Positions 12,871 through 25,364 of a DNA stretch of 48,307 nucleotides are shown here, one piece after another. The stretch is from the NCBI GenBank assembly GCA_020346225.1, contig CP070777.1:52260-100566 (forward strand). The letters run 5' to 3'. Every line of letters starts with the position of its first letter. Within the stretch, counting starts at the first letter, position 1. The translations under genes were made by a program, and so were the position numbers. The DNA is from Candidatus Zixiibacteriota bacterium. Lineage in GTDB: Bacteria > Zixibacteria > MSB-5A5 > GN15 > FEB-12. A model generated the notes under the pieces. That model had not been told where the DNA came from. It was given only the letters and a program-made list of their open reading frames with translations, and ran no database searches.

Positions 12871-14844
12871 TCAGGTGACCGTTTCCTCGGTTTTGCTGTC
12901 GGCATCGGAGCCCAAGGACTGCTCCACCTGTTTTTGCTGTTTCAGCTCCTCGTACCAGGCGGGATGGTGAAGCTGCACTTCGCTTACGGTCATCTTGCCG
13001 GTCAGCCATGTGAACGACATCGGGTACTGCTCCGGATGGAACATGACAAAGAAGAAGTGGAAAATGGCAATGGCCAGAGTGGCCAGCCAGGCCTCATAGA
13101 AGTGAATTGTCTCGGAGATCTTAACGACCCACGGCGGGAGGAAGGAGGTGAAGAAGGTCGGATACCAGAGGATGAAACCGGTGAAGGCCATAACGAAGGT
13201 ACCCCATACCAGCGCCCAGTACTCGGCCTTCATGGTGTAGTCGTAGAAACCGAACTTGGGTTTTTCATCGATCATACCCAGATGGTAGCGCAGGTTTTGA
13301 AAGATCTGAGCGATATCGTTCTTGACGGGCAGTAGTTCCTTGAACTGATAACGGCCGCGCTTGGTGAAGAACAGGAAGAGAGCGTGGTGCGCGGATATGT
13401 ACAGCAGCAGGAAAGCGGCAATGCGGTGGATGACGGAGCGGGCGTTTTCAAAGATTCCGAAGAAATTCAGGACCGACACCCACCAGGCATCGGGATAGCG
13501 GAGCGCGAATCCGGTTATCACCAGTACGATGAAGGCAATGGTAACGATCATATGCTGATAAACCATGTTCCCGCTGAACCTCTGCACCTTGGGCTGCGCC
13601 TTGGTGGCCCGGCTTTTCAGGATTAGATACCTCCCGAGAATTATCAGGTTGTGGGTGAGCATGGCGCCGACGATCAGGACGATGGCCACGATGTAGATCC
13701 ATTTGACAATGTTATCCAGGCGATTGAACTGCGCATAGGCGGTCTTGTGGGTGTAACTCGAAGCGAAGGCGTAGTTGGCGTTGATATGGCACTTCTGGCA
13801 GGTCGCCGTCAGGTTATTCGGATGAATAGACGAAGCCGGGTTGGCAGACGGCAAGATATCGTGAGCTTTGTGACAGGAGGCGCAGTTGGCAGCCTTGATG
13901 GAGCCCCCGTGAATGGCCAGACCGTGGTACGAGTCCTGATAGGAGGTAAAGCGGTCATCGCCCAGACCGAATTTCTCCACTATGAGGGGGTCGTTGTGGC
14001 ATTTGCCGCAGACATAATCGGAGAGATTGGAGGCGTTTACCGGGGAGCCGGGGTTGTCGATCTCCAGGATTTCGTGCTCACCGTGGCAATCGGCGCAGTT
14101 GGGGCTGTCGAGAATTCCCAGGGCGAGGGCCTTGCCGTGAATACCGCGGTTGTACTGGATGTAGATGTCGTTGTGGCACTTAGAACACGTGCTGGGAATG
14201 TTCATCTTATTGACCATCGACGCGGGATCCGAGGCCTTCTTCAGGTTATGCATGCCGTGACAGTCGTCGCAGGAAGCCGCGGACCCGATGCCCTTGGCGA
14301 TGCCCTCGGCGTGGATACCGCGCATATACCGGTCAAACGAATCGGTAATTCGCACATCAGGGTCGTCGGTAAGGACCTGCTTGTGGTGACACCGGGAGCA
14401 GGTGTAAGGCAATTTCTTGGGCGAGGTCCAGGCCTCGGGGTGCAGTTGCGACAGAGTGTTGTGGCTGTCATGGCAGGAGGCGCAGGTAGGGGCGTTGGGG
14501 TTGTGGACGGCCAGGCCGTGAGCTGAAGACTTGAACACCTGTCCGGCTTCGACGTGACATTCCGACGAGCAATCGGCCGACGCCAGCCGCTCCTTATGCG
14601 GGTATTCTTCAATGCCCCGCAAGTCGGCGTGACAGTCGACACAGCCCATACCGCTATGCACCGAGGCGTTCATGGCGGCCGCATTCACGTACATGCTGAC
14701 CTCAACACCCTTACTATTGATGCCGGTCAGGTCGGGGTCCTCGTGGCAGGCGAGGCAGGTTTCGTTGTCATCCTGACCATGGGCGCTGAAGCATATCAGT
14801 GAAGCAGCCAGCGTAAAGGCTCCAAGCAGTTTCAAAACCTTCAT
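12871..14844 (-). CDS. CbcL-like multiheme c / cytochrome b fusion
   Basis: A 657-residue fusion. A signal peptide (1-23) is followed by a periplasmic c-type domain with ten CxxCH motifs (residues 30-353) and one CX3CH (CSSECH, 92-97). Then come five membrane segments (about 382-404, 430-449, 471-493, 541-560, 581-602) of a b-type cytochrome, with candidate heme-ligand histidines at 398, 431, 473, 485/486, 581 and 596. Geobacter CbcL has the same two-part plan and moves electrons from menaquinol toward the periplasm during metal reduction, so a quinol:cytochrome role is inferred. Its heme domain is paralogous to the 9- and 11-heme proteins of this operon, and its membrane domain to the stand-alone cytochrome b. 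AGAGGA precedes the ATG. It is the last gene of the operon. Confidence 0.85.
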   Translation of the reverse strand: MKVLKLLGAFTLAASLICFSAHGQDDNETCLACHEDPDLTGINSKGVEVSMYVNAAAMNASVHSGMGCVDCHADLRGIEEYPHKERLASADCSSECHVEAGQVFKSSAHGLAVHNPNAPTCASCHDSHNTLSQLHPEAWTSPKKLPYTCSRCHHKQVLTDDPDVRITDSFDRYMRGIHAEGIAKGIGSAASCDDCHGMHNLKKASDPASMVNKMNIPSTCSKCHNDIYIQYNRGIHGKALALGILDSPNCADCHGEHEILEIDNPGSPVNASNLSDYVCGKCHNDPLIVEKFGLGDDRFTSYQDSYHGLAIHGGSIKAANCASCHKAHDILPSANPASSIHPNNLTATCQKCHINANYAFASSYTHKTAYAQFNRLDNIVKWIYIVAIVLIVGAMLTHNLIILGRYLILKSRATKAQPKVQRFSGNMVYQHMIVTIAFIVLVITGFALRYPDAWWVSVLNFFGIFENARSVIHRIAAFLLLYISAHHALFLFFTKRGRYQFKELLPVKNDIAQIFQNLRYHLGMIDEKPKFGFYDYTMKAEYWALVWGTFVMAFTGFILWYPTFFTSFLPPWVVKISETIHFYEAWLATLAIAIFHFFFVMFHPEQYPMSFTWLTGKMTVSEVQLHHPAWYEELKQQKQVEQSLGSDADSKTEETVT

Positions 14845-14883
14845 GTTTGCATCCTCTTTATATCAAGCAGCGTATCTTATTTA

Positions 14884-16455
14884 TCATTCGTGGCAGTCGG
14901 CGCAAATAGACTGCTCTATTTTTGTTACGCCATGCTTTTCGGTATCGTGGCAGTTCTGGCAGCCGAGCTCAAATTCAGAAACATGTAGAGTATGAGGAAG
15001 CTCATCGCCGCGGTAGCTGACCACTTCGGGATTGAAGGCTTTGCCGTGACAGAAGGTCACACAACTGTTTTCCGGCTGAATACCCGAGCCGCGATCCGGT
15101 GCCTTATAAGAACCGTTAATAGCTCGCATCGCCTCTTCGAAAATATCGGCACTCCTGTTTAACAAGTAAAGGGAATATTGAATATTGTGGGGAATATGTC
15201 CCTCGCGGACGAAGGCGTAATTCTCGTCGATGGAACTGAGGGCGGCGCGCACCTTCTGGCGATTCCGGCTGCTGCCGCCGGAATTGCGATAGTCCTGCCA
15301 TGCGTTCCGTGCAAATGATTGATAATCAGTCAGTACCTTCCGGCTTCCCTCGAGCCAATTATCGAACATGAGATCGTAATCCTCGCCGTGGCAGGTGATG
15401 CACGAGCGGCGCCCGGCTTCCTTTTTTTCCTGATGGGCCAGAATCTCGCCTTCGGGCGTCACATGCGTGTGGCAGCCGGTGCATGAAACCTGCGCCGTGA
15501 ACATGTCGCTGGGCATGTCCAGCGAGTCACTGCCGCCGATGCCCATATACAGCTGCTTGGGTAGATTGTGCTGTCTGATGTGGCAGCTTTCGCACGCCAC
15601 TTCCAGGGCACTGGCCATGGTGAAGTTGCCATGCTCGATATCCGAGTGGCACCTGTAACAGTCAATGCCGTTTTCACCGACATGCGTGTTATGAAGTTCC
15701 GTTCGCGAGAACTGCTCCCTGAGTCGCTCGACGTGACACGCATGGCAGGCCGATTCGACCACCGAGCCGTCGCCCCGAACGATTTGCACATGACACTGTT
15801 TGCACTCAACATCCAGCTTCAGGTAGGGCTCGTGGTCGAAGACGAAGCCGCTGTGTTCAACCTGCCGGGCGGGCATGCCGTGACAGGCGTTGCAGCCGGT
15901 AACGGCCTCACCCAGACCGGCGTCTTTAAAGTGACAGACGAAACAGCTTCTGTCGTTGACGACCATGTGGCCCTGGATATCATTGTCGTACTGCACAATC
16001 TGGTTATGGCAGGAGGTGCACCGAAGACGTCCGCCACGCAGGTCCTTTCCGAGATGAGCGTTGTGTTCGAAGAGGATATTTCCGCGGAATGTGATCCCCA
16101 CATCGAGAGACTCCCGGTCGTGACAGCCGGAGTTCAGGCAGCTTTCATCCGAAACCATTGCTTTGGGGCGGCGGTCGTAGGTATCGGTCCAGTACTTGAC
16201 GGCCGACACGGCCAGATCGAGGGCGCCGTAATCGTGGCAGGCGACGCAGTCGACGTCCGCGTGGGTGGAGGCCTGCCAGTGCCGGACGTAGGGGTCCATA
16301 TAATGACAGGTGTTACAGAAGGACGACTGGCTGGTCTTGTAAGAAAAAACGAGACCGGCCGCCACCAGAATTATCAGGCAGGCCCCGGCGAAGATGACCA
16401 GCGTACGCCAGTGCCGCTTCAGGAGCGCCCATATATCGCGGAGGAAGGTGATCAT
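14884..16455 (-). CDS. NapC/NirT-anchored multiheme cytochrome c, up to 15 hemes
   Basis: A 523-residue protein with one N-terminal membrane anchor (about 19-39). It has a NapC/NirT-type start (FCNTCHYMDPYVRHWQASTHADVDCVACH) and a long periplasmic domain. There are thirteen CxxCH motifs, one CX4CH (CLNSGCH, 106-112) and one CX3CH (CVTFCH, near the C-terminus). NapC/NrfH-family proteins take electrons from menaquinol or ubiquinol and pass them to periplasmic partners. This one is far larger than the tetraheme NapC. A helical insert free of heme motifs lies near residues 355-455. It ends directly on a last heme motif (CADCHE). It overlaps the cytochrome b gene by four bases, suggesting a joint complex. 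Confidence 0.85.
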   Translation of the reverse strand: MITFLRDIWALLKRHWRTLVIFAGACLIILVAAGLVFSYKTSQSSFCNTCHYMDPYVRHWQASTHADVDCVACHDYGALDLAVSAVKYWTDTYDRRPKAMVSDESCLNSGCHDRESLDVGITFRGNILFEHNAHLGKDLRGGRLRCTSCHNQIVQYDNDIQGHMVVNDRSCFVCHFKDAGLGEAVTGCNACHGMPARQVEHSGFVFDHEPYLKLDVECKQCHVQIVRGDGSVVESACHACHVERLREQFSRTELHNTHVGENGIDCYRCHSDIEHGNFTMASALEVACESCHIRQHNLPKQLYMGIGGSDSLDMPSDMFTAQVSCTGCHTHVTPEGEILAHQEKKEAGRRSCITCHGEDYDLMFDNWLEGSRKVLTDYQSFARNAWQDYRNSGGSSRNRQKVRAALSSIDENYAFVREGHIPHNIQYSLYLLNRSADIFEEAMRAINGSYKAPDRGSGIQPENSCVTFCHGKAFNPEVVSYRGDELPHTLHVSEFELGCQNCHDTEKHGVTKIEQSICADCHE

Positions 16456-17408
16456 TCCGTCGCCTCCTCAGTGTCGGCTACCTTCAGTTTCTCTTCGACG
16501 ATGCGGGCCGATTGGGACTCCATTATTTCAGCGTATTCCAGCGGGTGGTGATGCTTCATCTCATCCTCAGTGAGCTTGCCGTGCCACCAGACCCAACTCA
16601 TCGGGAAGACATCGGGGTTGAAATGCACGTTGTAGAAGTGCCAGATAACGATAGCCAGGGTGGCCAGAAGCCCCTCGTCGGAATGGGCCTCGCGGCCGAT
16701 ATCGAAGAGGTACTTGGGGAACCATTCTTTGAACCACATAATGAGGCCGGAGCCGATCATGATTACCATGCCCCAGTAAACAGCCCAGTAATCGAACTTT
16801 TCGATGAATGAAAAGCGGCCGAATTTCGGCGGTGAGGGGCGGCGCCCGAAGAAATAGAGAAGGGTCTGGAAGAAGTTCTTGATATCTTTCGGGCGCGGCA
16901 TCATCAGAAAGAAGTCACGACGGCCGTCGCGAGAGAAGGTGATATAGAAAAGGTGCCAGACACCGACGATAATCAGGCCGACGGCGCCGACGCGGTGGAT
17001 CAGGGTGGAATTCTGCAGGCCCCCCAGAAGGTCGATGATGATGAATTTTGAGATGGCCAGTTCGGGGAACTTGAGCGGCATGCCGGTTATGATCAGGATA
17101 ATGACGGAAACGAACATGAGAGCGTGCTGCAGGCGGAAGTTGACGCCGAAACGCTGAAAGGTGCGCTGGGGAGTTTCTTTTCGTTCCTCGTAGGCGCGGC
17201 CGGGGCTGAGTTTGGTGACGGCTTCATTGAGGAGCACACTCACCTCGAAACTCAGCCGACGCCGGGCCTCGGCCGTCATTTCATCGACTTGCTCCAGGCG
17301 GTCTTCGTCGGGCTCGGCGATAGTGGCGGCGTCCTGAACGATATCCTCCGCCAGCTCGGAGATTAGGGATTCGCGTTTGCTTTCGGCGGGGTTGCTGGAG
17401 TCGGTCAT
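16452..17408 (-). CDS. Cytochrome b, Cbc-type membrane subunit
   Basis: A 318-residue b-type cytochrome with an acidic cytoplasmic N-terminus of about 90 residues and four membrane segments. Histidines placed as in b561/formate-dehydrogenase-gamma-type cytochromes are in RLQHALMFV, LIHRVG, GVWHLFY and VIWHFYNVHF. The C-terminal segment PMSWVWWHGKLTEDEMKHHHP closely matches PMSFTWLTGKMTVSEVQLHHP of the fusion protein two genes downstream, so the two membrane domains are duplicates. It probably forms the quinone-reactive subunit of a complex with the multiheme proteins on both sides. It overlaps the next gene (ATGA) and lies 12 bases after the 9-heme gene. Confidence 0.85.
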   Translation of the reverse strand: MTDSSNPAESKRESLISELAEDIVQDAATIAEPDEDRLEQVDEMTAEARRRLSFEVSVLLNEAVTKLSPGRAYEERKETPQRTFQRFGVNFRLQHALMFVSVIILIITGMPLKFPELAISKFIIIDLLGGLQNSTLIHRVGAVGLIIVGVWHLFYITFSRDGRRDFFLMMPRPKDIKNFFQTLLYFFGRRPSPPKFGRFSFIEKFDYWAVYWGMVIMIGSGLIMWFKEWFPKYLFDIGREAHSDEGLLATLAIVIWHFYNVHFNPDVFPMSWVWWHGKLTEDEMKHHHPLEYAEIMESQSARIVEEKLKVADTEEATE

Positions 17409-17420
17409 GACGTTAAGGCC

Positions 17421-18488
17421 TTACTTTTGCCCCCGGGCAGCTTTAGCTCGCCGGAAAAGGTCGAGAATTATAAATATAAACAGCCCGGCCAGCACCGACA
17501 CGGTCAGGACCAGAAAGCCCCGCGAAATGTAATAAAGGAACCCGGACTCCTCGCTAGAGGGGTCGATGTGGATTCTTCCCGAGGTGAATCTGGCACTGGC
17601 CTCGGGATGGCAGCCTTCCTTGCCGCAGGTTCCGGGAATATTAGCCGGATTTATCGATGACTTCGGGTCGACCTGCGAGCGTATATCGTGATACCCGTGA
17701 CACGAGGCGCAGTTGGCGACCATCATGTTTTCCATCAGTTGCGCCACTCCATGGAACGATTCCTCGAAAGTGGCGATCCGGTCGGTCTTAATACCGTACT
17801 TGGCCACCACCCCCATGGGGCCATGGCAACCGGAACAGGTCTCGGTGACGTGGATGGGTGAGACTCTCGAATCCAGCAGATCCGGACGTTCGATATTGTG
17901 TTCACCATGGCAGGAAGTGCAGACGGGCGAGTCCGTGTTTCCGAGCTCGACGGCGCTGCCGTGCACCGATTCCCGATAAGTGGCATAGATATCAAGATGG
18001 CAGGTACCGCATGTTCTGGGTATGCTCTGACGGTAGAATTTCGATTGGGGCAGGTCGTGGCGCAGAACATCATGGCTCCCATGGCAGTCCTGACAGACCG
18101 GCGCTTTACGGTTGCCGCGACCTACTTCCAGACCATGAACCGAATGCTCGTACTGGTCGTACATCTCACCCTGTGGGGCACCCACCGGATTACCTGAATA
18201 ATGACACCGCCGGCAGTTCACCTTGGCCACGGTCTTGTGTGGAATGTCAACGATATCGGCGTGGCAATCAGTGCATTTCTTGCCGGCGTGCACCGACGCC
18301 GCGATGACCGAGGTATCTATGTAGAGTGATACTCTGCGGCCGGTGGCTTCAATCTTGTGATGGTCGGTCTTGCCGTGGCAGATAAGACACTTTTGCTCTC
18401 CCCGCACCGGGCCGGCGGCACCGAGAGCGACCAGAAAGTATATGACCAGCGTGCCGATTAGTTCTTTCTGTCGGGAGAAACGCGCCAT
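17421..18488 (-). CDS. Membrane-anchored multiheme cytochrome c, 8 CxxCH plus one CX4CH
   Basis: A 355-residue protein with a signal peptide (about 1-30), a heme domain and a C-terminal membrane anchor (about 318-342) followed by a short basic tail. It has eight CxxCH motifs and one CX4CH (CGKEGCH). The CX4CH falls exactly where the paralogues have CGSCH (11-heme protein) and CQKCH (fusion protein), so it is very likely a real heme site. The shared segment DRIATFEESFHG...ANCASCHG.HDI recurs in all three proteins. It lies between the 11-heme gene (two bases) and the cytochrome b gene (12 bases). The role is inferred as electron transfer at the periplasmic face. Confidence 0.85.
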   Translation of the reverse strand: MARFSRQKELIGTLVIYFLVALGAAGPVRGEQKCLICHGKTDHHKIEATGRRVSLYIDTSVIAASVHAGKKCTDCHADIVDIPHKTVAKVNCRRCHYSGNPVGAPQGEMYDQYEHSVHGLEVGRGNRKAPVCQDCHGSHDVLRHDLPQSKFYRQSIPRTCGTCHLDIYATYRESVHGSAVELGNTDSPVCTSCHGEHNIERPDLLDSRVSPIHVTETCSGCHGPMGVVAKYGIKTDRIATFEESFHGVAQLMENMMVANCASCHGYHDIRSQVDPKSSINPANIPGTCGKEGCHPEASARFTSGRIHIDPSSEESGFLYYISRGFLVLTVSVLAGLFIFIILDLFRRAKAARGQK

Positions 18489-18490
18489 CT

Positions 18491-19672
18491 CTATACCCTC
18501 TTTACCCGCCGCTTGTATTCCAGAACGCGATAGAGCACAAAGGCCAGAATAAGAATGGAGATGAACCAGATGTAGAACTTACGGACATAGAATTCCCCGC
18601 CGGAAGTCGGGTCGGTGGCGGAGGTGTGCACCTGTCCCTGGGCGAAATCCTGCGGCAGGTCGTCGTGACAGGAACCGCAGGTCTTCTCAATGTTGACGGT
18701 GTGGATGAGCGACCTTTCGTCGGACTGGGGATAGATATCGTGAACCCCGTGGCATGAGGCACAGTTGGCAACGGTGGTTTCACCCAGTTCGATGGCGGTG
18801 CCGTGGAAGGACTCGTTGAAAGTGGCAATGCGGTCGGCCTTGAGACCGAATTTGCCGACCACCTTCTCCGACGCGTGACAATCCGAGCAGGTCCTGGGGA
18901 CATTGCCGGCGAAGACCTTTGAGGTCGGGTCAAGATGCGCCCGGATGTCATGCTCGCCATGGCAGTTGGTGCACGTGGGCGACTCCAGAGTGCCTTTGGC
19001 CAGGGCACTGCCGTGAACGGACGCGGTGTAATGGGAAGCGATTTCTTCGTGACAGCGACCGCAAGTGGCGGCTATGTGCGTTTTGTATAAGGGACTCTCC
19101 GGCTGGTCGGACGGCATGAACGAGTGGCCACCGTGGCAGTCGGTGCAGGCGGGGGCGCGCATGTTCCCTTCGGTCATGAGGGCTCGTCCATGGACCGAGT
19201 TCTCGTAGGCCTTGATCATCGGCGGTTTGGGCAGTTGCGTAAATTTTGCAGTGACCGATGCATCCTCGTGACACTTGATACAAACCGACACCGAATTCCG
19301 GTGGTTGACGGCTGACTCGGGGTCATCGACTGCTAGAATGGTGTGTCCGCCATGGCAGGTAACGCAACCGGGCACGTCCTCGACGGAGACCTCACGTCCG
19401 TGCATGTGCGGGGACACGCCGTAGGCTTCCGCAGCGTCGATATGACACCTGCCGCAGAGGACGTCGTGAGTGCCAACATGACGCAACTCCGGGTTGACGT
19501 TGTGGCAGTCATTGCAGCCGAGTTCAGCGTGAACGGAATTAAGCAAGACAGCCGGGTCCACCGCGGGCGCACCGGTAGAAACCTGGCCATGACATTTAAG
19601 GCACGGGTCGTCGGCCGCCAACACGGTCGCCGAGAGCAGAACCGCACCAACGAGAAATCTGATACCTGCCAT
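18491..19672 (-). CDS. Membrane-anchored 11-heme cytochrome c
   Basis: A 393-residue protein with a signal peptide (MAGIRFLVGAVLLSATVLA), eleven CxxCH motifs and a C-terminal membrane anchor with a basic tail (YKRRVKRV). The start at 19672 follows a GAGGGG...AGGGG stretch; an in-frame ATG at 19711 would precede the signal peptide with 13 unlikely residues. It is the first gene of the five-gene cytochrome operon. A good promoter lies about 70-95 bases upstream. Repeated CHG-HDI/HTI pairs suggest the domain grew by duplication of a two-heme unit. Confidence 0.87.
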   Translation of the reverse strand: MAGIRFLVGAVLLSATVLAADDPCLKCHGQVSTGAPAVDPAVLLNSVHAELGCNDCHNVNPELRHVGTHDVLCGRCHIDAAEAYGVSPHMHGREVSVEDVPGCVTCHGGHTILAVDDPESAVNHRNSVSVCIKCHEDASVTAKFTQLPKPPMIKAYENSVHGRALMTEGNMRAPACTDCHGGHSFMPSDQPESPLYKTHIAATCGRCHEEIASHYTASVHGSALAKGTLESPTCTNCHGEHDIRAHLDPTSKVFAGNVPRTCSDCHASEKVVGKFGLKADRIATFNESFHGTAIELGETTVANCASCHGVHDIYPQSDERSLIHTVNIEKTCGSCHDDLPQDFAQGQVHTSATDPTSGGEFYVRKFYIWFISILILAFVLYRVLEYKRRVKRV

Positions 19673-19738
19673 ACCCCTATCAACCCCTCTTCCAGACTGG
19701 CCGCACGTCACGGCTTCAGCCCGGGGCTCTCCAGTCGA

Positions 19739-19767
19739 ATTATAGCCCGGAGCGGACCTGCGGCCAA
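19739..19767 (-). promoter_or_regulatory. Promoter of the five-gene cytochrome operon
   Basis: On the minus strand TTGGCC (19767-19762), a 17-base spacer and a perfect TATAAT (19744-19739). The leader of about 60 bases contains ACTGG and CCAGT arms that can pair around GC-rich sequence. The operon it serves runs to the hairpin at 12813-12848. Confidence 0.6.
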
Positions 19768-19875
19768 ATTAATCCTTTTCGAGCCCAATATAAGTAAATA
19801 CTCACTAACTTCAAGCACTATTTTTCACAAGCCTTGCCCGCTAGCTAACTGCCCTAACGGCAATTTCTTAGCACG

Positions 19876-21387
19876 TCAATAGCCTGATTCCGGCGTGTGG
19901 CAATCGGTGCACTTGAACTCACGCCAAGCTTCATCTATATCTTCTGGGTGCTGGAAAGTCAAACCCGACAGATCATATTGCAGCTCCGAGACTGTTTCTG
20001 AAGGTCCCTGGGCAACAATAAGATGGCAGGTGGAGCAGTCGTTGGAAACCCCCTTACCGTCATCGGTCTCCATCGACCAATTATGGCATCGAAAGCAGCC
20101 GTCGTTGACAAAGTGACTCAAGTTGTTCTCCCGGACGCGGTAGTCGGTTTTCATCTCCGGGAAAAAGTTCTGGTTGTACACCTTGAGTAGAATATCGGTG
20201 GCTTTCTCAATTTCATGGCTGTCGTTGGCGGCCAGTTCGGGATAATTTTCCTTATAGTAGTCGACAAGTCCTTCCGAAATCGCCGCGTTAGCCTCTTCCC
20301 GGTCGCTGTATTCGTCATTGAGGAGCTCCAGGCCGACCTGCCGGATGTATTTTAATTCGGGGGATATCTGCCTTGTCGACAGGGCCAGGTTCAGCGCTGT
20401 GGCCGGCGCCAGGAACGAGTGGCTGGGTCGGTTGTGGCAGTCCATGCAGTCGAACAGCCGAATCTCTGTTTCAGGGTCTTCGAAATCAGGCGGTTCCAGG
20501 TCAGGATTGCGATATACAACCGTATCACCGTCAGCGGTGATAAGCTGGACCCAGCTGACCTCCCGTCGTTTTCTATCCGAGGCGACATAGTAGATGGTGT
20601 TGGATCCGATCATGTGCCAGTGGATGCCTTCGAGCCGTCCGGTGCGGGGGTTTCCGCCGCCGATTTTGACGAGCAGCTTTATGGTCCACGGGCTGTTATC
20701 CTCGTCGGTGCGGTAATAGGTGTGAGTGACCATTTTCTCGCCGTAGAACTGCCTCGGCCAGTGGCACTCCTCACAGGTTTCCTGAGCCGGTCGGAGGTTT
20801 TCCACGGGCGTTTCGATAGGCCTAGAGAACGTGTTCAAGGTCGTAGCCCACAGCTGCCGGATGCCGTCGACCTTCGACTTGACGTAGAACGAGGCTCCCG
20901 GGCCGATATGACATTCGACGCAGGCCACCCTGGCGTGGGCGGAGTTGTGATAGGTAACATTCTGGGGTTCCATCACGGTGTGACAGGTTTCGCCGCAGAA
21001 AGCGACGGAGTCGGTAGCCTCATAGGCTTTGGTGCCGCTGTAGGCGACCAGGAAAATAAGCACGGCCGACAATCCCAGAAACAGCCACAGGTTTCTCATA
21101 TAGTAGGGGTCGCCGGGGTCTATGGAGAGATTGAACCGGACCGATTCGCCCCGACGCCGGGCGGCCCTCACCTGCAGCCACACGGCCAGCAGAAAGAGCA
21201 GGAAACCGACAGTGATAATGAAAGGCGCGATGACAAAGGTCACCAGGGAACGATAGGGGTTGTCGGTGGGGGCGGTGAGATCAATGACGAGCAGTATCAA
21301 AAACAGAAAGACACCGGCGGCAAACAAGGCTCCGCCGACCGCGGCCAGGGGATGTCTATAGAGCGTACGTCTTCTGCGCTGCTGCAT
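19876..21387 (-). CDS. NapC/NirT-family cytochrome c with three membrane segments
   Basis: A 503-residue protein with two N-terminal membrane segments (about 15-35 and 47-70) and a third near 98-118. A periplasmic NapC/NirT-type domain follows. The first heme motif is CX3CH (CGETCHTVMEP) and then come six CxxCH motifs. CX3CH at this first site is, to my recollection, common in this larger NapC/NirT branch. The sequence HARVACVECHIGPGASFYVKSK is typical of it. A region without hemes (about 215-300, strand-rich) and a helical region (about 330-400) separate the sites. It probably passes quinol electrons to periplasmic cytochromes. It has its own promoter, so it need not be coexpressed with its neighbours. 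Confidence 0.82.
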   Translation of the reverse strand: MQQRRRRTLYRHPLAAVGGALFAAGVFLFLILLVIDLTAPTDNPYRSLVTFVIAPFIITVGFLLFLLAVWLQVRAARRRGESVRFNLSIDPGDPYYMRNLWLFLGLSAVLIFLVAYSGTKAYEATDSVAFCGETCHTVMEPQNVTYHNSAHARVACVECHIGPGASFYVKSKVDGIRQLWATTLNTFSRPIETPVENLRPAQETCEECHWPRQFYGEKMVTHTYYRTDEDNSPWTIKLLVKIGGGNPRTGRLEGIHWHMIGSNTIYYVASDRKRREVSWVQLITADGDTVVYRNPDLEPPDFEDPETEIRLFDCMDCHNRPSHSFLAPATALNLALSTRQISPELKYIRQVGLELLNDEYSDREEANAAISEGLVDYYKENYPELAANDSHEIEKATDILLKVYNQNFFPEMKTDYRVRENNLSHFVNDGCFRCHNWSMETDDGKGVSNDCSTCHLIVAQGPSETVSELQYDLSGLTFQHPEDIDEAWREFKCTDCHTPESGY

Positions 21388-21483: not shown

Positions 21484-21510
21484 GGCCGCACCACCCGGGG
21501 TGGTGCGGCC
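21484..21510 (-). terminator. Terminator of the mtrAB-like operon
   Basis: GGCCGCACCACC (21484-21495) pairs perfectly with GGTGGTGCGGCC (21499-21510). On the minus strand the stem is followed by TTTT. It is 40 bases past the stop of the porin's C-terminal part. Its position shows that transcription of the whole interrupted porin gene is expected to end here, not at the internal TGA. Confidence 0.8.
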
Positions 21511-21550: not shown

Positions 21551-21967
21551 CTAAAGCTGAATCCTCAATCCCGACCGGACGACAAACACCGCGCCGGTTT
21601 CATCGTCGTACACATAAGGCGCGTAGTCCCAAAGGGTTCCGAAAGTGCCGTCGGCCGTCCAAGTAACCTGCGGTGAGAGAACGTATTCGAACCCCAGCGT
21701 GAAGTTGATCAGCTCGAAATCCAAATCGGAGTAGAGAGGCATCTGTTCGAAGGTGAAGTCCTGATCCTCAAGTTCACCTTCGAGCCGATCCTCAACACCT
21801 GGCATGGCGACCTCTTGCAGCGAGGCCTCCGCCTTATTATAGGCCACCGTTGCCGAGAGGCGAAGGTCCGCAGCGGGAACGTAGGATGCTGTGATATACA
21901 CGTTATGGGCTTTGGATTCATAATCGCTCATGGTATAAGCCGAGCCATAATGCTTTGCGTCGCCCAC
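21551..21967 (-). CDS. MtrB/PioB-like porin, C-terminal part after the in-frame TGA
   Basis: A 138-codon piece in the same frame as the larger porin part upstream. Between the TGA (21994-21992) and the GTG at 21967 lie eight sense codons (AGHIFRDA). It carries the last strands of the barrel: KAHNVYITASYVP, LRLSATVAYNKAE, ELINFTLGFEYVL and VVRSGLRIQL at the end. It has no signal peptide and no convincing ribosome binding site, so it cannot act as a protein on its own. It is best read as the end of one 723-residue porin. Confidence 0.75.
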   Translation of the reverse strand: MGDAKHYGSAYTMSDYESKAHNVYITASYVPAADLRLSATVAYNKAEASLQEVAMPGVEDRLEGELEDQDFTFEQMPLYSDLDFELINFTLGFEYVLSPQVTWTADGTFGTLWDYAPYVYDDETGAVFVVRSGLRIQL

Positions 21968-21991
21968 GGCGTCGCGGAAGATATGGCCCGC

Positions 21992-21994
21992 TCA
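21992..21994 (-). other. In-frame TGA within the MtrB/PioB-like gene
   Basis: The codon after ALFDG is TGA, at position 577 of the protein. The next codons continue in the same frame. It may be a point mutation (from CGA, GGA, TGG, TGC or TGT), a sequencing error, or a read-through or recoded codon. Only a weak GCGG/CCGC stem follows, so a selenocysteine element is not evident. Confidence 0.85.
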
Positions 21995-23722
21995 CCCGTC
22001 GAACAACGCCACCGTCACTGGCAGGCGCGATTTGTCGAGAGTGCCGGTGTACCCGGCGGCCAGAGTCCATTTGGCATTCGGGATGAAGTTCAAAGCGACA
22101 CTCGGCTGCAGGGAGTGGTGCTTGACATCGAGCGAGTCCAGGTCACCGTTTTTGTCATAGGTGAACTTCGCGCCCAGGCTGAAGCTGAACCTGTCATTCG
22201 GGCGGTCGCTGAGTTTCCATTCAACCACGTGTTTGTCGGTGGGCAGCGAAGTGATATCCTGGTACCGGAGGTCTTCTCTCTGGAAATAAAAGATCCATTG
22301 AGAGACCGGTATAAGGGGTTCCAGGATGTCATTGCCGGCGGCTTCGAACAAACCCCTGGCGGAAACAAACGGGTTGGAGACCTTCTCGAAGCGATATTTG
22401 ACCGCCGTCGAGAGCCGGAGTCCTTTGCGGTAGCGCAACCGGGCCTGGCCGGTCAGTTTCTCCGTGCTGGTTCCCTCGTTTACAAGCGGGTAGTCGTCGC
22501 GGTCGATCCGGTTGTATCCGGCCAGGACCGAAAGGGTGAGCCGGTTGGTAAGCCGGGAAATGACCTGGGCGGACAGCCTGGTATCCCACCGGTCAAGCGT
22601 GGAGATGCGGGTGTAATCGAAATCGGTTTCGTTCAGGTCAGCAGCGCCGTCGCGGAAGGTAGGCAGATCAATGTACGGGTCGCCCCCGATCTGCCGTGCG
22701 GCGGTGCCTTTGGTGACAAGTCTTGTTTTATCATTCAGTCTGACGGCGTAATTGGCGGCGCCAATAAGCGATTCGGTTGTTTCTCCGCTCTTTTTGTTCT
22801 TGGCCCGGGCATAGCCCAGCGAGCCGGTCATCCGGCCTTTGCCGAGGTCGGTTTTGAGGCGCACCCGGTGCGAGGTCTTCTCGGTGCGGGGCAACCTGCC
22901 GAAGACGAGCTCTTCGTCATCATACACAAGCCGGGAACTGAACTCGCCGGCGGCGGCGCCGCTTACCGGATTCTTGGCCGGGTCGTAGTAAGCGGAAACA
23001 TCCGGCGCGTCCGAATCAAACAGCCTATACTGGAACCGGTAGCCCAGATCGAGCCGACCGAATTCGGCATCCAGGCCGGCTTCGAACTGGTGCTGAGCCT
23101 GATCAATTGTGCGGGTACGTGAGGTAACATGGCAACTGAAGCAATGGTTCGAGGCAATTGCCTGCTCGGTGCCGTCCTCGATAATGCTTCTGTGATTCAA
23201 CGATAGACGCACGTTGTTTTTTTGCGAGAGCAGGGCCTGAAAGCGGGTCAGAATTTCGCGACGATGGATGTTATAGTCGGCGTCAGGGTCGACTATCTCA
23301 TGCGTCAGCATCTTGCCTCCGGGGTTTCCCGTAGAGGCCAGATACTCTCGCGCTTCGAGGTTGGCCAGTCGATCCTGAGCGGTCTGATGAGTCAGCGAGC
23401 GATAGCGGGCGTTGAACCTGAGTGTATTTCCCACGGTGCCGCGCGCCTGACCGATGATGTTTTCTTCATCGAAGTAGTGCCCGTCCAGCCTGAAAGTAGT
23501 GTTATCGGAGCGCGAGAAATAGTTCAAACCGACTTCCGGTCCCCAGCCGTCGCCGCTCTTATCATACTCGCCGATCTTCTTGGGGCTGTCCTGAAAGTCG
23601 GTATACTGCGAGCCCAGCCAGACCGAGAGGTTCTCGGCAGCCTCATCTTCCCCTGCCAAGGCCGGGGCTGCGGCCAGGAGAAGGGCGAGGCTCATACAAA
23701 GCAATGTTTTCATTGTCTTCAT
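21992..23722 (-). CDS. MtrB/PioB-like outer-membrane porin, N-terminal part, with a CxxCH motif
   Basis: In Shewanella and Rhodopseudomonas, MtrB/PioB forms a beta-barrel that sheathes the decaheme MtrA/PioA and lets electrons cross the outer membrane. This part (576 residues) has a signal peptide (1-23) and many amphipathic strands. One heme-type motif, CFSCH, is at residues 194-198; MtrB itself has a CxxC near its N-terminus. A TGA ends the frame after ALFDG. With the 138-codon part downstream the protein would be 723 residues, close to MtrB (about 700). The start follows AGGAGAAGGAG and lies nine bases after the decaheme gene. The MtrB call rests on the neighbour, size and fold; I compared no alignment. 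Confidence 0.75.
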   Translation of the reverse strand: MKTMKTLLCMSLALLLAAAPALAGEDEAAENLSVWLGSQYTDFQDSPKKIGEYDKSGDGWGPEVGLNYFSRSDNTTFRLDGHYFDEENIIGQARGTVGNTLRFNARYRSLTHQTAQDRLANLEAREYLASTGNPGGKMLTHEIVDPDADYNIHRREILTRFQALLSQKNNVRLSLNHRSIIEDGTEQAIASNHCFSCHVTSRTRTIDQAQHQFEAGLDAEFGRLDLGYRFQYRLFDSDAPDVSAYYDPAKNPVSGAAAGEFSSRLVYDDEELVFGRLPRTEKTSHRVRLKTDLGKGRMTGSLGYARAKNKKSGETTESLIGAANYAVRLNDKTRLVTKGTAARQIGGDPYIDLPTFRDGAADLNETDFDYTRISTLDRWDTRLSAQVISRLTNRLTLSVLAGYNRIDRDDYPLVNEGTSTEKLTGQARLRYRKGLRLSTAVKYRFEKVSNPFVSARGLFEAAGNDILEPLIPVSQWIFYFQREDLRYQDITSLPTDKHVVEWKLSDRPNDRFSFSLGAKFTYDKNGDLDSLDVKHHSLQPSVALNFIPNAKWTLAAGYTGTLDKSRLPVTVALFDG

Positions 23723-23731
23723 CTCCTTCTC

Positions 23732-24682
23732 CTATCTGGTTAGAGCGTTGCCGCCGGACGATATTGCCTGAGAAGGCAAATCCGAACCGTGGATTTCGGT
23801 GTGGCACTGAGTACATTTGGTGAGCATGCCTTCTTTCCACGAGTCGGGCGTGGAACTTCCGGCACGCTGGGGTGCCTGCGGAGTTGAGAAATCGCCGTCA
23901 ACGCTGACGACGGTGGCATGGAAGTGCATGGGGTGACAGCTCAGGCACAGGGCGGGCTCGGTCTGCTTGAGCAGGTTGTCGGCGACAGCGCCGTGCGGGT
24001 CATGGCAGATCAGGCAGTCTTCGTTGACGGGAGCGTGCTCATAAATGAAGGGGCCTTCCATCTCACCGTGACAGCTGAAACACAGTTCGCGGCCGGTGGC
24101 CTCGGCGGTAAGCCGGGCCGCTCCGCCATGCGGGTTGTGGCAGTCGTCGCAAACCAGTTTGCCCTCCCTGACTGGATGGTGCGAAGGCATATAGGCGGCG
24201 GCCCTCACATCGGCATGACAACCGTAGCATATGTCCGGCTGGGTGCATTTGGGAGCCTCTTCGTAGCCAACATGAACCGAGTGGCAGTCCGCGCAGCCGA
24301 CGTCACCGGCGAGGTGCGCCGAGAACGGCCACTCGTCAAAGCCGCCGGTCCGATGACAGTTAAGGCAGAGAGCCTGGCCGCCAAACTGGTCCTGACCGGC
24401 CGGGTTGATGATCCCGGCGGGATCTCCCTCTTCAATGTGACCGACTGCGTCCCCATGACATGCCTCGCAGCTTGTTTCAGCCCCCACGGTTTTACTCAAA
24501 CAAATCCCGTGCGGAGTCATCGAGAAAGCTTCCACTACGTCACCGTGGCAGCCGGCGCAGACATCATTTGTCACCTCGGCCAGAGCGGGCGATACAGACA
24601 ACAGTACCAGCCCGATGGCCAACGTCGCCGCCAATGCGATGGAAACAATTTTCCCCGGACTCCCCCTCTTGAAGCGACTCAT
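23732..24682 (-). CDS. MtrA/DmsE-type decaheme cytochrome c
   Basis: A 316-residue periplasmic protein with a signal peptide (about 1-35, ending SPALA) and exactly ten CxxCH motifs. Length and heme count match MtrA/DmsE/PioA (about 310-335 residues). Typical segments are present: ELCFSCHGEM, EHAPVNEDCLICHDPHG and ALCLSCHPMH. In the family, the protein threads through the MtrB barrel and forms a heme wire through the outer membrane. A perfect AGGAGG lies upstream of the ATG. It follows the TetR gene by 85 bases on the same strand and precedes the porin by nine bases. No surface decaheme (MtrC/OmcA) gene is adjacent. Confidence 0.9.
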   Translation of the reverse strand: MSRFKRGSPGKIVSIALAATLAIGLVLLSVSPALAEVTNDVCAGCHGDVVEAFSMTPHGICLSKTVGAETSCEACHGDAVGHIEEGDPAGIINPAGQDQFGGQALCLNCHRTGGFDEWPFSAHLAGDVGCADCHSVHVGYEEAPKCTQPDICYGCHADVRAAAYMPSHHPVREGKLVCDDCHNPHGGAARLTAEATGRELCFSCHGEMEGPFIYEHAPVNEDCLICHDPHGAVADNLLKQTEPALCLSCHPMHFHATVVSVDGDFSTPQAPQRAGSSTPDSWKEGMLTKCTQCHTEIHGSDLPSQAISSGGNALTR

Positions 24683-24767: not shown

Positions 24768-25364
24768 TCAGGCTTTGAGGCCGCGAACGTAAATGGGGAT
24801 GTTATTGGCCATGGCCTCTTCAGGCTCGTACACTTTCCCCTGGAATCCCCGCCAAAGGGTTATTCCCAGCACGCAGTCAAAGACCATGCCGATGAAGCAG
24901 CGAGCCGTAAGCTGATTGTCCTTCTTAATGATTATCCCTTCTTCATAGAGTCGATCGAGCTGTTGGCAGAGGAAGGTGACGTAGACTCCCCGGATGACCT
25001 GATAAACCCGTTTTGCCTTGGCGTGATCGCGCAGGGCCGAGAACAGCAGCAACCGGTACAGGTCACGGTTGCTGGTGAAGAATTCAAGGATATGCTGAGC
25101 CAAACCCCTAAGAAGCTTCTCCAGGTCGTTTTCCTTATCGAGATGAACGAAGAGATCGGACGACGACAGGCGCTGCTCTACCGAGTCCAGCACCGCCGCA
25201 TAAATAGCTTCTTTGGATGGAAAATGCCGGTAGAGGGCCGGCTCGGTGATGCCGCAGGCTTCGGCCAGCTCCTTGATGGTGACCTTGTCAAAGCCGTTTT
25301 CGCTGAAAAGACGGGTGGCTTCGAGAAGTATCTGGCCCTTGCGATCGGGGACGGAAACCTTCAT
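24768..25364 (-). CDS. TetR-family regulator of the mtrAB-like operon
   Basis: A 198-residue repressor with an N-terminal helix-turn-helix (about residues 8-55: VTIKELAEACGITEPALYRHFPSKEAIY) and a helical ligand-binding domain that I cannot assign to a ligand. The ligand domain includes FFTSNRDLYRLLLFSALRDH, similar to the TetR_C domains seen with fatty-acid or redox-linked regulators. It lies upstream of, and on the same strand as, the decaheme and porin genes. A palindromic operator overlaps its promoter, predicting autoregulation and control of the downstream genes. Confidence 0.85.
   Translation of the reverse strand: MKVSVPDRKGQILLEATRLFSENGFDKVTIKELAEACGITEPALYRHFPSKEAIYAAVLDSVEQRLSSSDLFVHLDKENDLEKLLRGLAQHILEFFTSNRDLYRLLLFSALRDHAKAKRVYQVIRGVYVTFLCQQLDRLYEEGIIIKKDNQLTARCFIGMVFDCVLGITLWRGFQGKVYEPEEAMANNIPIYVRGLKA

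Follow-up and report, generated by a model that had tools for sequence, protein, structure and literature searches.

A GSU2204-family MtrB-like barrel gene of Candidatus Zixiibacteriota with an in-frame UGA very probably read as selenocysteine

In the usual description MtrB serves as an insulating sheath. The protein has 26 strands, with tight turns on the periplasmic side and long loops on the extracellular side (PMC7198977). Also relevant is ExtKL of Geobacter (NF040886), the annotated product of gsu2937-gsu2936. Closest to the locus described here is the NCBIfam family NF041027 (GSU2204_Se_pt_1, "GSU2204 family CXXCH-containing (seleno)protein"), which takes its name from GSU2204 of Geobacter sulfurreducens. 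Two reviews count the GSU2204 family among the selenoproteins and call it MtrB/PioB family outer membrane beta-barrel protein (PMC13188914; PMC9312934). In G. sulfurreducens, expression of both GSU2203 and GSU2204 is higher with iron oxides (PMC4070692), which is consistent with a joint role. The literature found on the selenocysteine of this barrel comprises reviews and one expression table, with no experimental account of what the residue does.

The window, a stretch of 48,307 nucleotides from a Candidatus Zixiibacteriota genome, carries on its minus strand a frame with one internal stop only, a TGA at codon 577 (Table 1). Codons 1-576 precede it, an ordinary stop closes the frame, and a downstream ORF of 138 amino acids opens with a GTG at 21967-21965, eight sense codons past the TGA. 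Re-reading the frame thus bears out the earlier note on this DNA, which had described two same-frame pieces of 576 and 138 codons, divided by a single TGA, with eight sense codons between this and the first start of the second piece. That note had left the choice between a recent nonsense mutation, a base error and read-through. Read-through stands, as selenocysteine, and the other two fall, on the basis of TGA in 54 of 54 readable orthologues, a covarying SECIS hairpin and a complete selenocysteine machinery. We consider it very probable that the gene is intact and specifies a selenoprotein, UGA 577 being decoded by SelB and the hairpin and the product being an MtrB-like barrel.

Table 1. Features of the porin locus, in window coordinates
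Feature	Position	Strand	Evidence
Complete gene for a predicted selenoprotein, 723 aa including Sec577; GSU2204 family, MtrB-like outer-membrane barrel	21551..23722	(-)	NF041027 match, orthologues, fold match
UGA codon 577, predicted to specify selenocysteine	21992..21994	(-)	TGA in 54/54 readable orthologues
Predicted SECIS hairpin, apical loop GUG at 21967-21965	21957..21975	(-)	covariation, RNAalifold, bSECIS constraints
CFSCH, codons 194-198, invariant haem-c-type CXXCH motif in the barrel	23129..23143	(-)	30 orthologues
Decaheme c-type cytochrome, GSU2203 / DmsE type, MtrA-like partner	23732..24682	(-)	NF041028 339 bits, TIGR03508 219 bits, both over cut-off; 10 CXXCH
TetR-family regulator, upstream, same cluster	24768..25364	(-)	TetR_N E 5e-18
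Probable terminator hairpin past the porin gene, then TTTT	21484..21510	(-)	perfect 13-nt arms

With the TGA read as U, the 723-amino-acid protein matched NF041027 with 563.5 bits (E 6.3e-169; curated cut-off 350 bits) from residue 13 to 576, covering positions 2-580 of the 580 in the model, which thus stops one residue short of the TGA codon. Judged by this match, the window gene is a member of the already catalogued GSU2204 selenoprotein family, and Candidatus Zixiibacteriota is a new host lineage. The Pfam family MtrB_PioB (PF11854) found nothing in the genome at E <= 0.001 and was absent among the Pfam matches of the barrel protein at E <= 0.1. An AlphaFold run with a 30-row alignment produced a large barrel (mean pLDDT 78.8, pTM 0.71), for which Foldseek gave 6r2q_B, the MtrB chain from the Mtr complex, as the top solved structure (E 9e-23). 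VIA-align superimposed the two over 569 residues in the range 27-723 with Z 26.8 and rmsd 3.3, the runner-up reaching Z 17.9. The MtrB/PioB-like assignment made earlier therefore holds by fold and not by Pfam sequence match, and the precise family is GSU2204. The model has 26 strands if the short strand 133-143 is counted as loop. Five of its strands lie past residue 577, in agreement with the earlier view that the second piece bears the final strands, and on this model a product ending at the TGA would lack strands needed to close the barrel in the manner of MtrB.

Scanning the genome contigs with a single sequence as query gave no relatives; a query made from an alignment did recover them. 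A match to the porin was found in 44 of the 80 genomes of the order. The site was read in 30 full-length orthologues and then in additional copies found in the order, in the class and in a single Latescibacterota genome. When homologs are aligned across ALFDG-x-AGHIF, TGA occupies the site in all 54 that are readable (38 in the order, 15 elsewhere in the class and 1 in Latescibacterota), in contexts that include ALFDG-U-AGH, AMFDG-U-AGH and MMDG-U-AGH, and a sense codon in none; such agreement at one site is far beyond chance. Every copy in the order that covers the site has exactly one internal TGA, apart from a decayed one with an extra TAG. In a phylum-wide search, the frames of full-length matches likewise close near the TGA site. 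Homology runs past ALFDG to residue 723 in the orthologues, and the C-terminal piece is conserved to the same degree as the N-terminal one, mean identity to the window protein being 47% after the TGA vs 49% before it (77% for residues 570-585). Versions with cysteine were sought among the weak NF041027 matches of the searched genomes and none was found, these matches not being homologous at the site; with no cysteine-containing homolog in the genomes searched, the site has no Sec/Cys exchange comparison.

The decayed copy, in genome G029 (C2:10300-11700), has partly lost its middle and carries the TAG two codons ahead of a retained TGA (AL-TAG-DG-TGA-AGH). Two nearly complete genomes of the window's genus (G016 and G017) possess selA and lack the porin, giving weak distant matches only, so the gene is patchily distributed. 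Outside the phylum, Candidatus Latescibacterota contig CP070677.1 encodes a GSU2204-family porin, matched over residues 350-703, whose gene shares the TGA and the SECIS, which suggests a wider spread or horizontal transfer.

Sixteen bases past the TGA a hairpin begins. The 45 bases from the TGA gave a gap-free alignment of 31 sequences, which had been picked for ungapped alignment, a choice that tilts this count towards copies without insertions or deletions. In alignment columns 20-38 (window 21975-21957), 85% of cells were paired vs 27-49% in slid controls. Changes on both sides of the stem numbered 35 vs a shuffled mean of 9.1, and the covariation score was 0.408 vs 0.122 after shuffling, none of 500 shuffles scoring as high. 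Columns 25 and 33 pair in 31 of 31 sequences, as A-U, G-C, U-A or C-G; column 28, the first base of the loop, is an invariant G. RNAalifold recovered the identical stem unaided. In the published bacterial SECIS model the loop has 3-9 nt with a G at its first or second position, the stem has 4-16 bp, the loop lies 16-37 nt from the UGA and the energy is <= -7.5 kcal/mol (PMC13188914). The window hairpin lies within all of these limits: its loop is GUG, its stem has seven standard pairs plus one A-A mismatch, the spacing is 24 nt and the energy -8.7 kcal/mol. Among 52 distinct downstream sequences, loop, stem and spacing were within these limits in all 52 and the energy in 42 (hairpin taken alone). 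Rfam had no SECIS family at the site, to which we attach little weight since bacterial SECIS elements are dissimilar. In a scan of the genome with the SECIS model, the porin gene was the sole clear match (E 3.8e-14), and neither of the next two (E 0.007 and 0.06) led to a convincing gene with an in-frame TGA. What this analysis adds for the GSU2204 family is support for its SECIS from covariation.

These data bear on two other readings. In the first, the gene has suffered a recent nonsense mutation and is decaying, only the first 576 residues being made. The in-frame TGA and the decayed copy in one relative, with its TAG and missing parts, would suit this, but 54 orthologues share the TGA across the class and one other phylum, the downstream part is equally conserved and the SECIS covaries, which leaves it highly improbable. 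TGA in all 54 orthologues together with equal conservation past it effectively excludes both a recent mutation and a base error. In the second, there are two separate proteins, the second starting from the GTG at 21967. An ORF with this start does exist, but the GTG forms the apical loop of the SECIS hairpin, is probably not a start codon, and gives way to GGT or GTT in many orthologues. Moreover, the 138-residue piece taken alone matches no Pfam domain and provides strands of the MtrB fold. We regard two proteins as very unlikely.

A search for selA, selB, selC and selD, which the earlier note had proposed, recovered all four over cut-off. SelA scored 503 bits, SelB, encoded directly behind it, 296 bits, and SelD 381 bits; the tRNA-Sec passed the Rfam cut-off and has the anticodon TCA (UCA). 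The SelD gene (G000:C1, about 724940-725890) contains its own in-frame TGA at codon 21 (SCAG-U-AAKL), of known type, and there is a further, shorter match to SelD at G000:C1:3017215-3017673. Since selA is over cut-off in 73 of the 80 genomes of the order, its co-occurrence with the porin is uninformative. Three porin-bearing genomes have no selA over cut-off, two of them also no tRNA-Sec over cut-off; these assemblies are incomplete (85-93%).

Some bacterial lineages read UGA as Trp or Gly, and there is thus precedent for decoding the TGA as another amino acid (e.g. Trp), by a genome-wide code change or unspecific read-through. However, TGA terminates 21 of the 32 long frames of the window and genome-wide recoding is therefore not indicated; neither TGG nor any other sense codon ever swaps in at the site, the genome has tRNA-Sec and SelB, and a SECIS would be superfluous. 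This reading has hardly any credibility. A base-calling or assembly error in the window genome, for which one base would be enough, has a negligible probability given the identical codon in 54 independently assembled genomes.

The order tetR, decaheme cytochrome, porin was found in most of the related loci long enough to show it, in several genera. The earlier note had placed a terminator after the second piece. There is indeed a perfect inverted repeat with 13-bp arms and a TTTT behind it (21510-21484), but it is not listed by terminator prediction under a stricter T-run rule. Beyond the repeat lies a promoter-like site, and with the terminator-like repeat before it the next cytochrome gene may belong to a separate transcript. 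Further multihaem cytochrome and b-type cytochrome genes occupy window 12871-21387 on the minus strand, directly downstream of the porin and behind the probable terminator.

The residues C194, C197 and H198 of the CXXCH motif are invariant in 30 orthologues, and the sole conserved Cys/Sec columns of the mature protein are C194, C197 and U577. By strand parity, with the N-terminus taken as periplasmic, the loops carrying Sec577 and CXXCH194-198 are probably both extracellular in the model, which is weak at both (pLDDT under 50 at 194-196, 575-580 and 583-589). It is conceivable, though on balance doubtful, that Sec577 and C194/C197 work together as a redox or haem-ligating centre where an MtrAB-type conduit opens outwards. 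If they do, the barrel would join in electron transfer itself and be more than a sheath, and these bacteria would need selenium to pass electrons across the outer membrane. Conservation of a selenol and a haem-type motif on the barrel may point to a role beyond that of a sheath. The strictly conserved trio C194, C197 and U577 is a target for a functional test of the GSU2204 family.

From established knowledge of SelB-dependent decoding, selenoprotein synthesis from the window gene would proceed with SelB, on the downstream hairpin, bringing selenocysteyl-tRNA-Sec to UGA 577. Translation would then run 146 residues further and supply the last barrel strands. If the MtrAB analogy holds, the barrel would keep the decaheme cytochrome encoded next to it in place across the outer membrane, and, more speculatively, Sec577, C194 and C197 on one outer face could form a single redox or haem-ligating centre close to where the conduit ends. 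Decoding of the UGA would tie synthesis of the GSU2204-family barrel to selenium. The earlier note had gone further, proposing that a codon read through would control the last step of outer-membrane electron transfer; such a regulatory role is hypothetical. Standard gene callers would break this conserved Zixiibacteriota selenoprotein gene into two.

Compared with the GSU2204 family NF041027, the window protein shares the full-length profile match, the end of the model at the Sec site, the CXXCH and the adjoining GSU2203-type decaheme cytochrome; it differs in the host lineage, Candidatus Zixiibacteriota, and otherwise no difference in kind was found. With MtrB of Shewanella MtrCAB (6r2q_B) it has in common the barrel fold over residues 27-723 (Z 26.8) and an adjacent decaheme cytochrome gene, but the identity is 11%, and the Sec and the conserved CXXCH loop are features of the window protein. 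ExtKL of Geobacter is likewise a predicted selenoprotein in an extracellular electron-transfer cluster; it is a multihaem cytochrome of a separate family, whereas the window protein is a barrel.
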